The notes beneath the pieces were generated by a model that searched no databases, was not told the DNA's origin, and worked only from the letters and a program-made list of their open reading frames with translations. From Aeropyrum sp. (GTDB lineage Archaea > Thermoproteota > Thermoprotei_A > Sulfolobales > Acidilobaceae), in NCBI GenBank assembly GCA_015523465.1, contig WAKF01000017.1, positions 1 through 35,237 on the forward strand: a stretch of 35,237 nt of DNA, written 5' to 3'. Shown here one piece after another: positions 19,063-35,011 of this stretch (the first letter of the stretch is position 1; every line of letters starts with the position of its first letter). Made by a program: the position numbers and the translations under genes.

Positions 19063-22997
<3,935 letters not shown>

Positions 22998-23080
22998 AAT
23001 CTTGCACCTCCCCTAGGGGAGTCCTAAAGGAGTCTTTCTGGAGAATAGAGGGGTTAAAAGCTATGCGTTCCAGTTAGCCG

Positions 23081-26000
23081 CTAGATCACTATCTTATCTA
23101 GGAGCCTCAGCTTCCTCGAAACCTTGATCTCCGGCTTAATCATCATGCTCGTTATCTCCTGGAGTAGTAGCTTGAAGGCGTAAGGCACCTTAACGGCCTT
23201 AATGTCTGCGTCCTCGCCGTGGATCGGGCACTCCGGCACTCCCTTCCTAGCGTTATACCATGCTATGTTACCGCACTCGTTACACACGTACATCACGTAG
23301 GCATCGCTGTTCTCTAGCATCCTATCCCTCAGCATCATGGCAGCCCCATGACCCACAAGACAGTCCCTCTCCATCTCGCCGAACCTAAGGCCTCCCTGCC
23401 TAGCCTTACCCTCGGTGGGCTGCCTAGTGAGCAGGTGCACCTTGCCCGTAGCCCTGGCGTGCATCTTATCAGCCACCATGTGGTAGAGCCTCTGGTAGTA
23501 GGTGATGCCGATGGTTATCATCCTCTCGATCATCCTCCCAGTCCTACCATCATACATTACTTCTAGGGCGTCGGGATGGTAACCCGACTTGACGAGCCTA
23601 ACCCTAAGGCCCTCTATAGGCTCCTTGAAGAACGGCGTAGCGTCAACATACCGCGCCTCCAGGGCGCCGAGCTTCCCAGCGATCTCCTCGAGGAGCTGCC
23701 CCACAGTCATCCTCGATGGTATTGCGTGGGGGTTTAGTATGACCTCGGGCTCTATACCCTCCTCCGTATAGGGCATATCGTATCTTGGGAGTATCATTCC
23801 TATGACACCCTTCTGGCCGTGACGACTAGCGAACTTATCGCCTATCTCAGGTATCCTCAAGTCTCTGACTCTAACCTTGACCATCCTATTCCTCTCCACA
23901 GTAGTGGTCATAATCACCATGTCTACTACTCCCTTCTCGCCGTGCCTCAGAGTGACACTCGTATCTTTATACCGCCTCTCAACTGCTGCAGCTCTAGTAT
24001 CGCTCAAGAACCTTGGCGGGCTCTTCTTAGCTATCAAGACGTCGCCCCCGACAACCTCGATCTCAGGCTCGACGATGCCATCGGGAGCAAGCTTCCTATA
24101 AGCATCCACACCCTTATAGTCTGTAACCTCCCCTGGAGCCGGTATCTTGATCTCGTCCCTCTCTCCGCCGGGATACTCGTTCTCCACGGTACTATAGACC
24201 CTGAAGAAGTATGCCCTCCCCAGGCCCATGTCAAGCGCACCCTTATTGAACACGAGTGCGTCCTCTATGTTGTAGCCTGTATAAGCCATTATGGCGACTA
24301 CCATGTTCTGGCCTGCGGGGAGCCTGTTGTAGCCTATAGCCTCTAACATCCTAGTTTGCACTATAGGCTTCTGGGGGTACTGGAGGAGGTAGCTGTGGCT
24401 ATCCATCCTAACCTTGAAGTTGAGGGCATAGACTCCTAGCGCCTGCTTAGCCATCGCAGCCTGGTAAGTGTTCCTTGGGCTCTGGTTATGCTCTAGGTAG
24501 GGTATCGTGGCCGCTGATACGCCTACGATGGCGGCAGGCCATATCTCCATGTGTGTATGCTCCCTCGTGATCTCCCAGGGTAGCTGGGCTATGTAGGCGT
24601 TAGCCTCCTCCTCGGGATCTAGGAACTCGATAACGCCCATCCTGACTAGGTCCCAGAAAGTTAGCTCGCCCCTTCTAAGCTTCTCCACGTGCTCCCTTGT
24701 AAGCTTGGGCCTACCGTTCTCCACAACTATCACGGGCCTCATAAGCCTGCCTGCGTCGGTGTTAATGTACACCTCGTCTATATCGCCCTCCTTCAGGTGG
24801 TAGACGCTAACCTCGTAAGGCCTCTCTACTGGGAGTTCGCCCCTCCTCCTCATCTCCCTCAAGGCCCTAGCTAGCTCCTCTCCATCCTTATGGTATCCTA
24901 TAGGCCTCCCGTTAAGGAATACCTTGCTACCCTTAAGCATTATCTCTGGGGGACTACCGCTCTTCACAGCCTCTCTTATCAAGCCCTCGTAATCTCCATA
25001 CTCGTCGAGGGGGACGACACCGAGCTTCTCGTATAGGAGCTTCTCGATCTCACCCTCATCAACACCCACAGAGATGTAAGCCATTAAGGCTAGATTCTTC
25101 ACGAGGCCGCAGTTAACCCCCTCGGGCGTCTCGAAGGGGCAAAGCCTACCCCAGTGGCTGCCGTGTAGGTCGCGGGCCTCGAAGTGTGCTTGGCCTCTGC
25201 TCAGCGGCGAGACAACCCTCCTAAGGTGGCTCCTCACGCTGATCCAGTTAGTCCTGTCTAGCTGCTGGCTGATCCCAGTCCTGTCTTGCCCCCAGTTGCC
25301 AGTCGCTATGGCGCTCCTCAGCCTGTCAGTTATAAGGTCGCTTCTGACTATGTAGCCTAGGCTCTGTATGGGCTTCCTCTCCGAAATATACTCCTCCAGC
25401 TTCTGGGCCACGTGGTTTACCAGCGCCTCCAGGGACTCCCTGAATAGCTCAGCTATCAGGTCGCCGGCGAGCCTCAGCCTCTTATTGCCTAGGAAGTCCT
25501 TGTCGTCGGGGGCCCTCATGCCCAGGTAGAGCTGTATGACCCTGTTAACCATCTCCGCAATGAAGTAAGCCTTCTTCCTCCTATCCTCCGGGCTCGTGCC
25601 CAGGTGGGGTAGGACCTGCGTGTCTAGGAACTCCTCAGCCCTCTTAATCCTAATATCCTCCGGCTGCCCAGGGGCTAGCCTGTTACCCAGGTACCTCAAG
25701 GCATCTTTCACGGTGGGGGCTAAGGCTGCCGCCTTCTCTATGCTAGGTAGCAGCTCCATCTGTATCTCAGGCCTAGGGGAGACTGCCATCATTATCTCAA
25801 TATCCTTCTCGAGGCCAAGGGCTCTCAGCAGGATTACAACTGGGACTCTATGCCTGAGCCTGCTGAGGCTAGCCTCTATAGTCCCGTCGCTCATCCTATC
25901 AACTATGATCTGCCTTCTAATGCCGAGTACCGTTGATACGACCTTAGCAGTATGGGTTATCTTGGCTGTGGCGGCTGTGGTAGCAGGTCCTGCTATAATC

Positions 26001-26599
26001 CTGTTTACTGCGAGGTCTTCCTGGGCCACTATGACCTTCTCGCTCCCGTTGATTATGAAGTACCCGCCCGGGTCTTCAGGGTCTTCTCCATACTGTATGA
26101 GCTCCTCCCGGCTAAGCTTGAATATAGGGTCTAGCACGCTCCTAATCATGACTGGGAAGTCTGCTATCTTAACCTTCTGCCTCTTCTCGGGGTTCCCATT
26201 CCTGTAAAGTATAGCCTCCACCAGTAGGGGGATACTATAGGTGATACCCCTGATCCTACACTCCATCGGAGTCACAGGCCTGTTAAACACCATCTGCTCC
26301 TTAGCCAACGGCTTCTCGCCGAACTCAACCTTAGTTATGACTAGCTTCACATCAGGCCTAAGCTCCTCCTCCAGCAGGGTCCTACGGGCCCTCCTCCTAG
26401 AGTACATTAGCCTAGCCTGGGGCCTGATCTCCCCCACGCTCATCACGATCTTCGCGATCTCCTTAGTCACCAACCTGTTATAGGAGTCCAAGTGCTGCCT
26501 CGCCAGGCCCGTCTCCTCTATGAAAGACCGGAACACGCTCCAAAGGTCGTCTATCGTGAGGTCTCCGGCAACCGGCCTTGATACACTTATACCCTCCAA
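23081..26599 (-). CDS. rpoB: DNA-directed RNA polymerase subunit B (unsplit)
   Basis: This 1172-residue protein carries both halves that are separate B'' and B' genes in many euryarchaea. Landmarks are the fork/lobe region, EHNQSPRNTYQAAMAKQALG, GYNIEDALVFNKGA, and the hybrid-binding block GDKFASRHGQKGVIG. The C-terminal zinc motif CNECGN...CPIHG is followed by the clamp helix YAFKLLLQEITSMMI. It starts at TTG 26599, only 13 nt after rpoH, so the two are co-transcribed. The unsplit form supports a crenarchaeal origin. Confidence 0.98.
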   Translation of the reverse strand: MEGISVSRPVAGDLTIDDLWSVFRSFIEETGLARQHLDSYNRLVTKEIAKIVMSVGEIRPQARLMYSRRRARRTLLEEELRPDVKLVITKVEFGEKPLAKEQMVFNRPVTPMECRIRGITYSIPLLVEAILYRNGNPEKRQKVKIADFPVMIRSVLDPIFKLSREELIQYGEDPEDPGGYFIINGSEKVIVAQEDLAVNRIIAGPATTAATAKITHTAKVVSTVLGIRRQIIVDRMSDGTIEASLSRLRHRVPVVILLRALGLEKDIEIMMAVSPRPEIQMELLPSIEKAAALAPTVKDALRYLGNRLAPGQPEDIRIKRAEEFLDTQVLPHLGTSPEDRRKKAYFIAEMVNRVIQLYLGMRAPDDKDFLGNKRLRLAGDLIAELFRESLEALVNHVAQKLEEYISERKPIQSLGYIVRSDLITDRLRSAIATGNWGQDRTGISQQLDRTNWISVRSHLRRVVSPLSRGQAHFEARDLHGSHWGRLCPFETPEGVNCGLVKNLALMAYISVGVDEGEIEKLLYEKLGVVPLDEYGDYEGLIREAVKSGSPPEIMLKGSKVFLNGRPIGYHKDGEELARALREMRRRGELPVERPYEVSVYHLKEGDIDEVYINTDAGRLMRPVIVVENGRPKLTREHVEKLRRGELTFWDLVRMGVIEFLDPEEEANAYIAQLPWEITREHTHMEIWPAAIVGVSAATIPYLEHNQSPRNTYQAAMAKQALGVYALNFKVRMDSHSYLLQYPQKPIVQTRMLEAIGYNRLPAGQNMVVAIMAYTGYNIEDALVFNKGALDMGLGRAYFFRVYSTVENEYPGGERDEIKIPAPGEVTDYKGVDAYRKLAPDGIVEPEIEVVGGDVLIAKKSPPRFLSDTRAAAVERRYKDTSVTLRHGEKGVVDMVIMTTTVERNRMVKVRVRDLRIPEIGDKFASRHGQKGVIGMILPRYDMPYTEEGIEPEVILNPHAIPSRMTVGQLLEEIAGKLGALEARYVDATPFFKEPIEGLRVRLVKSGYHPDALEVMYDGRTGRMIERMITIGITYYQRLYHMVADKMHARATGKVHLLTRQPTEGKARQGGLRFGEMERDCLVGHGAAMMLRDRMLENSDAYVMYVCNECGNIAWYNARKGVPECPIHGEDADIKAVKVPYAFKLLLQEITSMMIKPEIKVSRKLRLLDKIVI

Positions 26600-32421: not shown

Positions 32422-33030
32422 TCACTCGTAAACCTCTAGTATAGCGTCTGCCTCTTTAAGCCTCTCCGCGACCCTGCGTATGGCTTGGTACACTTCCTCT
32501 TCCCTCTTAGCCCCGGTTATCACCATCTTCCCGCTACTGAAGATTAGCATCACCACCTTGGGCTCGTCCATCCTGTATATCAGCCCGGGGAACTGTTCCG
32601 GTTCGTATAGGCTGTTCTCGAATTGCATAGCAGCGGTCTCTAGGTCTATCGAGGCCTTTAGGTTCACCGAGGCCACTATATTTTGGATCTGTATCTGAGG
32701 CTTGCCCCTGATCTCGATGCCCTCCTCAACGAAGGTCTTGAGGAGCCTCTTCACAACGTTTATCAATTGTTGGACGCTCTTAGCCCCGGTTATCACCATC
32801 TTGCCCGACTTGAATATCAGGACTGTCACTTTAGGGTGCTCGAGCCTATAAACGAGGCCTGGGAACTGGTCCGGGTTGTAGTCTACATCCCTGATCTTAG
32901 TCTCGATCAGGTTCAAGTCTAGCTCGTTCTCGAGGGTGACGGTAGCCACTATGTTCTCGATCCTAACCTCGGGCTCGGGAAGGCCCAGGTCACTAAGGTC
33001 TACAGTCTTAACTTCTGCGCCCGGAGTCAC
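32422..33030 (-). CDS. tbp: TATA-box-binding protein
   Basis: This 202-residue general transcription factor recognises TATA boxes with TFB and RNA polymerase. The two symmetrical repeats are clear: [20 protein letters not shown] to MVITGAKS (about residues 24-85), and [20 protein letters not shown] to MVITGAKR (about 115-178). Each has the Phe-Pro-Gly-Leu stirrup motif ([18 protein letters not shown]). The start is GTG 33030 with an overlapping GAGGTG SD; the N-terminal extension of about 20 residues before repeat 1 is slightly long but not unusual. It is divergent from the next gene. Confidence 0.98.
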
Positions 33031-33138: not shown

Positions 33139-33678
33139 ATGAAGAGGCGGGCAGCCAGGGAGGAGGGTGGTGACTGGCCTAGTCTCACACAGACTCCCCG
33201 CCTAGTAGAGGGTACAATAGTAATCATAGACCTAGACAGGTTCGGGGAGTACGTTAGGGAGAGGGGGCTAAGCGAGTACAACCCCAACGACGTAACAGGC
33301 CTCCTAAGCAGCCTAGTCGAGGACCTAGCCAGGAAGCGGGGTGGCGTGATCATCTACGGCCTAGACTGGAACAGGGGAACGGAGGAGGCAGTCATAGAGT
33401 TCCCGGGCGTGAGGGCTGAGGAGCTAAGAGAGGACCTGGAGAGGATAGCCAGGGAGATATGCAGTCAGGGAGCCTCCGCAACGATAGTCGCACTAACAGC
33501 CCACGCAGGCCCAGCTAGACCCCAGAGGAGGCGTGAAGCCTACCAATCCTCGACTCCAAGGAGAGCGGCAGCGAGGATCCTAAGGAAGCTCAAAGCCAAG
33601 GGAGGCGGATACCTCTACATAAACGGCGACACAAAGAGAATATGCCCCTCTCAGAGTACGGCTAGATGGAAGGGATAG
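33139..33678 (+). CDS. Conserved-looking archaeal protein, possible mini nucleotidyl-cyclase/palm fold
   Basis: This is a 179-residue protein. The core TIVIIDLDRFGEYVRERGLS, followed by a helix and then GGVIIYGLDWNRGTEEAVIEF, looks like the beta-alpha-alpha-beta start of a GGDEF/cyclase/GTP cyclohydrolase III type palm domain. There is an Asp pair (DLD) at the end of the first strand. The C-terminal third is basic (RPQRRREAYQ, RRAAARILRKLKAKG) and could bind nucleic acid. The fold assignment is tentative. The start is ATG 33139 behind GAGG/GGGGG. It is divergent from tbp, with a short promoter region between, and nothing follows it closely. Confidence 0.7.
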   Translation: MKRRAAREEGGDWPSLTQTPRLVEGTIVIIDLDRFGEYVRERGLSEYNPNDVTGLLSSLVEDLARKRGGVIIYGLDWNRGTEEAVIEFPGVRAEELREDLERIAREICSQGASATIVALTAHAGPARPQRRREAYQSSTPRRAAARILRKLKAKGGGYLYINGDTKRICPSQSTARWKG

Positions 33679-33851
33679 GCTGGATCCTATGCATAGTGCC
33701 GTGTTTCCTACAGAGCTGTAGTTAATTTAGATCTTAATGTTAGGATTAAGATTTATATATAAGTATTACGAGTAAGAAGTTAATGTAGTTTTCATAGAAT
33801 CTAGCTTTATGATTCCACTTCATTTTTATCGTAATTAATTGTTTAAGGGCA
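33679..33851. other. AT-rich intergenic region before the ATPase gene
   Basis: This stretch of A/T-rich sequence contains many TTAAT/ATTAAT motifs. I found no convincing ORF or RNA gene. It may contain upstream promoter or nucleoid-protein sites. Confidence 0.35.
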
Positions 33852-33860
33852 AGTTTATAG
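33852..33860 (+). promoter_or_regulatory. Probable TATA box of the archaeal ATPase gene
   Basis: AGTTTATAG lies about 42 nt before ATG 33898, giving a predicted transcript start near 33881, within the inverted repeat described next. Confidence 0.45.
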
Positions 33861-33863
33861 GTA

Positions 33864-33890
33864 CACCCCTGATACCTGGTATCAGGGGTG
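33864..33890 (+). promoter_or_regulatory. 13-bp perfect inverted repeat between TATA box and start codon
   Basis: CACCCCTGATACC and GGTATCAGGGGTG are exact inverted copies separated by one base. GATACCT occurs again directly after it (33890-33896). The element lies immediately after the TATA box, covers the predicted transcription start, and its right arm overlaps GGGGTGAT, the SD five bases before ATG 33898. It could be a dimeric repressor operator, or an RNA hairpin that hides the SD. The symmetry is exact; the function is inferred. Confidence 0.6.
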
Positions 33891-33897
33891 ATACCTA

Positions 33898-34983
33898 ATG
33901 CTCTTTGATCCCAGGCCTAAGACTAGACGGGAAGAACTCTATGATAGGGACTCCGAGCTCACGGCTCTCGAGGAATTCGTTGATAGAGGCTCGCCTCTAA
34001 TGGTCGTGTTCGGCATTAGACGAGTTGGAAAGACTTCTGTGGTTAAAGTGTTTCTCAGCGAGGCAAACATACCTTATATCTACATTGATGCGAGAGTCTT
34101 TGAGGAAGGAGGTTTCCGGAAGGAGCTGGTGTATAGAGTCCTTTCAGAGGAATTGAATAGATTAAGGGGGAGGTGGCATTCCATCCTAGAGTACCTTAAG
34201 GTGGTGGAAGGAGTAGAGGTGAGTGGCTTCTCAGTTAGATTTGACTTGAGAAGGCGGTTATCGCTAGTAGAGGTGTTTAAGAAGTTGGATGAATGGGCGG
34301 GAGATAGCGGTAGGAAGATCATAATTGCTGTAGATGAAGCCCAGCTTCTCAGGTATTTGAAGGGGGGTAAGGGTCGGATCGATTTTACCGCAGTAATATC
34401 ATACTGCTACGATAACCTGAGCCATATTAAGTTTGTCATTACTGGCTCGGAGGTGGGAGTGCTTAGGGATTTTCTCGGCTTTAACGATCCTAGCAGTTGG
34501 CTCTATGGGAGGATCAGGGACGAGTTAATTGTAGAAAGATTTGACAGAGAGAAGTCTATTGATTTCCTCGAGAAAGGCTTTAGTGAATGTGGCGTTAAGT
34601 CTCCAATAACCGTGATCGAGGAAATCGTAAATAAGGTTGACGGGATACCAGGGTGGCTAACATATTTTGGATACAGGTTCTGCAAGAACCCCGATCCAGG
34701 GGTTATTAGGGAAGCGTTTAACGAGGCTAAGGCGATGGCCTTGAGCGAGGTGAAAAAACTCCCCTCAAAATACTACATTTACGCGCTCAAGGCTATCGCA
34801 TTGGGCTATAATAGGTGGAAGAGCATCAAGCAGGCTATGGAAGTGTGGGTGGGTCATAGTTTATCGAATGCACAGGTATCTAGGACGTTGCAGATGCTAT
34901 CTAAACTGAGTTTTATTGAAAAGAGGGATGACGAGTACATTATACTCGACCCAGTGATTGCTGAGGCTGTAAAGGAGTTGTAG
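33898..34983 (+). CDS. Archaeal STAND-like ATPase (PF01637 type)
   Basis: This 361-residue P-loop ATPase belongs to the archaeal family that is expanded in hyperthermophiles. It begins FDPRPKTRREELYDRD, the family's N-terminal motif. Walker A GIRRVGKTS is at residues 39-47, Walker B IIIAVDEAQ at 141-149 and the sensor-like ITGSEVGVL at 181-189. A helical lid with GIPGWLTYFG follows, and a C-terminal winged-helix-like domain (SNAQVSRTLQMLSKLSFIEK) is a likely DNA-binding part. Such genes often lie in mobile or stress-related regions; their substrates are unknown. The start ATG 33898 follows GGTGAT by five bases. An AT-rich upstream region and a palindromic promoter suggest independent regulation. 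Confidence 0.9.
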   Translation: MLFDPRPKTRREELYDRDSELTALEEFVDRGSPLMVVFGIRRVGKTSVVKVFLSEANIPYIYIDARVFEEGGFRKELVYRVLSEELNRLRGRWHSILEYLKVVEGVEVSGFSVRFDLRRRLSLVEVFKKLDEWAGDSGRKIIIAVDEAQLLRYLKGGKGRIDFTAVISYCYDNLSHIKFVITGSEVGVLRDFLGFNDPSSWLYGRIRDELIVERFDREKSIDFLEKGFSECGVKSPITVIEEIVNKVDGIPGWLTYFGYRFCKNPDPGVIREAFNEAKAMALSEVKKLPSKYYIYALKAIALGYNRWKSIKQAMEVWVGHSLSNAQVSRTLQMLSKLSFIEKRDDEYIILDPVIAEAVKEL

Positions 34984-35011
34984 GAGTTTTAATTTTAACC
35001 TAATTCTAGTC

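Follow-up and report, generated by a model that had tools for sequence, protein, structure and literature searches.

A conserved pair of dyads in the promoter of an SSO1545/PAB2304-type AAA+ ATPase gene of Aeropyrum sp., a probable double operator for autoregulation

The window analysed here, that is, the whole stretch of 35,237 nucleotides of Aeropyrum sp. contig WAKF01000017.1 (assembly GCA_015523465.1), carries on its plus strand, at 33898-34983, a gene for a 361-residue AAA+ ATPase of the SSO1545/PAB2304 type (PF01637) with a C-terminal winged helix, a product that we propose to be an autorepressor. The protein scores 70 bits against the PF01637 ATPase_2 profile (cut-off 33.2) and is homologous over its full length to SSO1545 of Saccharolobus solfataricus (PDB 2FNA; phmmer E 2e-60) and PAB2304 of Pyrococcus abyssi (PDB 2QEN; E 2e-67), whose structures also rank first and second in a Foldseek search with its model. 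Its Walker A/B residues (G39, R42, G44, K45, S47 and D146-E147) are invariant in 37 homologues. The winged-helix domain (residues 291-349; 34768-34944, plus strand) has a pLDDT of 94.6 in the AF2 model and matches the MCM_C winged HTH, with helix 2 at residues 307-318, the recognition helix at 324-336 and the wing at 340-349. No Orc/Cdc6 profile is present among the Pfam hits of the ATPase, the likeness of fold being partial, defence-family profiles gave just short matches, mostly over the P-loop, and the 361-residue AF2 model lacks a repeat domain of the signal-sensing kind that is carried by STAND NTPases (MNS clade). The same window also contains RNA polymerase large-subunit genes (20307-26599, minus strand) and a gene for the TATA-binding protein (32422-33030, minus strand).

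Upstream of the ATPase gene we found, where the preliminary description had placed them, a TATA box (TTTATA, 33854-33859), a Shine-Dalgarno-like sequence (GGGGTGAT, 33885-33892) and the ATG at 33898, all on the plus strand. Given the TATA-to-start-site distance that is general knowledge for archaeal promoters, transcription on this strand is predicted to start 25-27 nt from the TATA centre, at about 33882-33884. The same region contains a perfect inverted repeat, CACCCCTGATACC-T-GGTATCAGGGGTG (33864-33890), whose arms are 100% complementary and separated by a loop of 1 nt. This is the sole perfect inverted repeat in the window with arms of at least 11 and a loop of at most 10 nucleotides, the expectation per window under a first-order Markov model being 0.13 for arms of at least 11 and 0.017 for arms of at least 13, and the 13-bp palindrome with one central base that had been reported is thus both real and beyond chance.

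The anatomy is best read, nevertheless, as two dyads of 17-18 bp located between the TATA box and the start codon. Dyad 1 (33860-33876) consists of GGTA-CACCCCTGATACC, that is, GGTACACCCCTGATACC, and dyad 2 (33878-33895) of GGTATCA-GGGG-TGATACC, that is, GGTATCAGGGGTGATACC, with no strand assigned to either; their centres, at 33867.5 and 33886.5, are 19.0 bp apart. Dyad 1 abuts the TATA box, is C-centred and therefore inverted relative to the G-centred dyad 2, and its outer left half is one base (T) short of GGTATCACCCCTGATACC. Dyad 2 encloses the predicted transcript start and the Shine-Dalgarno-like sequence, as which its G core doubles, and is followed by the ATG. It is because of these opposite cores that a 13-bp palindrome appears in this sequence: the right half of dyad 1, the left half of dyad 2 and both cores together give the long palindrome, which, if one bulged base is allowed, grows to TAGGTA...TACCTA (33858-33897). 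The preliminary description had combined the palindrome with a direct repeat; the third GATACCT that it mentioned does exist (33890-33896), but it closes dyad 2 as its right arm and is no independent extra, so that the proposed unit gives way to two dyads 19 bp apart. By itself, GATACCT is not enriched in the window (7 observed versus 6.1 expected).

This reading agrees with the upstream regions of homologous genes, which we gathered from 214 genomes of the order (99 of which had a match at 1e-30), from named genome contigs and from a regional collection. After removal of duplicates, 170 upstream regions remained, and 109 non-redundant members were used for finer comparisons. A region was considered to pass if it had two dyads, each with at least 4 of 6 pairs, spaced by 18-20 bp and with dyad 2 at 7-15 bp from the start codon. 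Two dyads passed at this fixed position in 130 of the 170 homologues, versus 10% of shuffles, and in 85 of these 130 the spacing was exactly 19 bp; the remaining homologues, about 40, have imperfect dyads below the threshold, most of them weaker versions of the dyad pair when inspected by eye. The position of the element relative to the start codon is fixed across homologues of several archaeal groups, the clade being spread over Thermoproteota, Thermococci, DHVE2 and others. The letters of the arms vary among homologues and yet keep the symmetry (GTATCA, ACTTCT, GTTCCG, CTACA, CTAACA, ACTTGG and ACTAGT). Dyad 2 is G-centred in 106 of the 109 non-redundant members, as expected if it doubles as the ribosome-binding site; for dyad 1, 13 of them have a C centre and 12 a balanced one. 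The conserved unit is the pair of dyads, and not the 13-bp palindrome as such. According to the position-specific composition of the same members (n=109), the TATA centre usually precedes that of dyad 1 by 10-13 bp and the start codon by about 38-43 bp; from this geometry, transcription would be expected to begin inside dyad 2.

We compared operator distances with protein distances among the 109 members, given the whole-protein distance, and observed that operator differences track residues 316-331 (the end of helix 2, the turn and the start of the recognition helix; 34843-34890, plus strand) far better than any other part of the protein. In windows of 11 residues the partial correlation is weak everywhere save in this segment (0.32 and 0.26), with a peak at residues 316-326 (partial r 0.32), a best value elsewhere of 0.17 and a maximum over 300 permutations of 0.15; the highest single columns are 323, 325, 318 and 329. 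The influence of the tree was reduced by the use of 54 independent pairs from a tree built on the ATPase domain only, compared in windows of 13 residues: of the 349 protein windows, the seven highest-ranking ones start at 317-325, and the window chosen a priori (319-331) has a partial r of 0.33 (p 0.015), the tree-independent pairs being few (54). Among distant pairs (ATPase-domain identity of 38-45%, distance 0.55-0.62), the mean operator distance is 0.18 for those with the same contact residues and 0.57 for those with different ones, the contact columns having been chosen on the same data, unlike the window scans. The correspondence can be read directly in the sequences: ISDSEIYNYL occurs with ACTTCT, IPKSTLSRII with GTTCCG, IYDSELARLL with CTACA, IYDAEL-RYL with CTAACA and TNAQVSRIL with GTATCA. 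Paralogues within one genome mostly differ in their operators, with no sign, in this comparison, that they avoid each other's (similar pairs 7.8% versus 7.1%).

The element is nearly unique in its genome. The exact sequence GTATCANNNNTGATAC occurs once, at this locus, and the core CCTGATACCNGGTATCAGG is single-copy even if up to two mismatches are allowed. A search for a wider regulon in the same genome returned 4 sites with one mismatch, versus 14 for the reversed-pattern control. In close relatives, matches to the G-core dyad are mostly those before the orthologue. The element is thus present before orthologues and is no genome-wide repeat, two of the points on which the preliminary description had let its proposal depend; copies before PF01637 ATPase genes in general, for which it had suggested looking, were not found, since among the ten PF01637 loci examined in this genome only one paralogue, of the SSO1545 type (L011), carries the element, with a different sequence. 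Of three extra sites examined in the ACTTCT group, two, in other genomes of the order, precede another gene of the family (L243) and a decayed copy (L244), and one is unrelated (L245); in L244 (G192:C2:1837500-1840000) one intact operator dyad precedes an ATPase gene copy that is apparently frame-broken. From this distribution of sites, the chief target would seem to be the gene's own promoter, and sites that are weaker or divergent may exist elsewhere.

No neighbour or partner gene was found to be conserved among the homologues. In a sibling species (G003) the 1.3-kb block of operator and gene (window 33679-35010) is missing, and the convergent genes that flank it in the window lie directly next to each other; no match was detectable in any of the five genomes sampled from the same genus. 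Gene and operator seem to travel, or to get lost, as a unit. No plasmid or phage carriers were found; there was one partial match to a viral contig. Around 4400-4450 of L235 (G210:C89) we also noticed another double operator, decayed in appearance (GTATCGCCAGTGATACCTGGTATTAGGGAGTGTT), that is followed by GCTCTTGTTC; the latter resembles the start of a broken gene of the family, and the site is possibly a relic of such a cassette.

Taken at the level of sequence, these observations make it very probable that 33860-33895 is a double operator for autoregulation, bound by the ATPase that is encoded at 33898-34983. The letters of the dyads change with the DNA-reading helix of the product of the same gene, and these ATPases therefore very probably switch off their own genes. 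The earlier suggestion of an operator of the homodimer type, read by the winged-helix ATPase itself, gains strong support, as far as sequence comparison can give it, from the homologous dyads and the covariation with the recognition helix. In the mechanism that we propose, the ATPase would bind the operator through its C-terminal winged helix, the simplest arrangement being one dimer per dyad of 17-18 bp. With two dimers 19 bp apart, the DNA would be occupied from immediately downstream of the TATA box to the ribosome-binding site, the transcript start included; RNA polymerase would then be unable to load and the gene would be held low. How tightly the protein binds would probably depend on the nucleotide state of the AAA+ domain or on another signal received there. 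More tentatively, since we would give it somewhat less than an even chance, the whole clade of archaeal AAA+ ATPases to which this protein belongs may consist of self-contained one-gene switches, each reading its own double operator with its own specificity and having its own promoter as main or only target; gene and operator would then move together, as a cassette of some 1.3 kb with no other gene, and the NTPase would time the opening of the lock.

The repeats could instead act in RNA and control translation, with the ribosome-binding site hidden in an mRNA hairpin (or in RNA hairpins bound by protein); the preliminary description, too, had considered an mRNA hairpin. In fact, the region 33855-33940 has a predicted fold of -34.1 kcal/mol (z -4.6), the G core of dyad 2 is Shine-Dalgarno-like, and mismatches in dyad 1 are more often G-U than A-C (28 versus 12). 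However, the TATA box abuts dyad 1 and the predicted start lies in dyad 2, so that the transcript would not include the left arm. Furthermore, dyad 1 is found G-centred, C-centred or balanced, as a dimer site in DNA, readable both ways, can be; G-T and A-C mismatches are equal in the arms of dyad 2 (15:15); arm sequences covary with a DNA-recognition helix; and Rfam has no match in 33650-34000. The orientation of dyad 1, the equal mismatches of dyad 2 and the predicted start argue against the hairpin, which we regard as quite improbable and do not retain as the best reading, even if the mismatches of dyad 1 lean towards it. A different host regulator could also control these ATPase genes through the dyads, since the covariation is statistical and another regulator of the same specificity could in principle coevolve with them; this seems quite improbable, given that no part of the downstream protein is tracked by the operator variation as well as its own helix is, that most paralogues of one genome have different operators, and that there is neither a conserved neighbour gene nor an excess of sites outside the promoters of the family.

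The dyads could also serve in activation, or in nucleation or partition by DNA remodelling of the Orc1/Cdc6 kind, rather than in repression. The nearest solved folds after SSO1545 and PAB2304 are archaeal Orc1/Cdc6 initiators, which likewise combine AAA+ and winged-helix domains and also bind dyads with a G-rich element. These next-best matches have about 16% identity and a TM of about 0.5, and they bind origins rather than promoters. Against such a role, the dyads described here span the predicted transcript start, with the TATA box on one side and the start codon on the other, which is the usual place of archaeal repressor sites, and they occur as one pair per gene and not in arrays. We consider such a role unlikely. 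As for the end of a mobile element or an unrelated genomic repeat, the absence of the 1.3-kb block of operator and gene from the sibling species would fit it, but the fixed position before the start codon and the uniqueness in the genome exclude this candidate, whose probability we take as negligible.

Autoregulation through promoter dyads, as we propose for this ATPase, is a known kind of control with an archaeal precedent. Stf76/ORF80 of Sulfolobus genetic elements resembles the proposed system in being an autoregulated archaeal winged-helix (wHTH) protein with two binding sites in the promoter of its own gene (PMC4027180); it differs in having 76 residues, no ATPase and sites tens of bp apart, whereas the dyads of the ATPase family abut at 19 bp. 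The AbiEi antitoxin is reported to be negatively autoregulated through inverted repeats in its own promoter (PMC7319586); the present case differs in that the gene has no partner and its product is a single AAA+ ATPase. The ATPase domain of the mycobacterial STAND regulator IniR was modelled on SSO1545 (PMC5760070), and IniR similarly joins an NTPase to a C-terminal DNA-binding domain, but it is a far longer protein with a sensor domain and works as the activator of another operon.

SSO1545 and PAB2304 are known as structures, and the literature searched held neither a target DNA nor a regulation for them. Likewise, no description of an operator or of the regulation of this ATPase family was found in the open-licence literature searched, outside which the 2009 SSO1545 structure paper falls, and the repeats may have been noticed earlier. 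What appears to be new is the assignment of a clade of AAA+ ATPases with solved, unexplained structures to autoregulation, together with a correspondence between helix and operator across the family. About 130 members thereby obtain a concrete predicted DNA target each, the residues expected to determine specificity are named (318, 323, 325 and 329 in this protein), and the natural helix-operator pairs can serve in deriving a recognition code of winged helices at high temperature. There is also the question of why a multi-domain ATPase would mainly regulate itself; such control suggests a function in sensing or defence, or a selfish one, that is kept tightly in check. As for SSO1545, the operator ACTTCTGGGGGTAGAAGT-T-ACTTCTGGGGGTAGAA precedes the GTG of a 99.7% identical copy (L183); the crystallised protein has, therefore, a predicted cognate operator, which makes the idea quickly testable by direct binding.

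Some homologues depart from the usual layout. In L132, L043 and L121 there are apparently three repeat units, instead of two, before the start codon. In others (L120, L122-L125, L129, L135, L138 and more) the conserved N-terminus begins at ATT/ATC, and the nearest usual in-frame start codon is apparently a GTG inside dyad 2, so that operator and coding start may overlap in homologues of this type.
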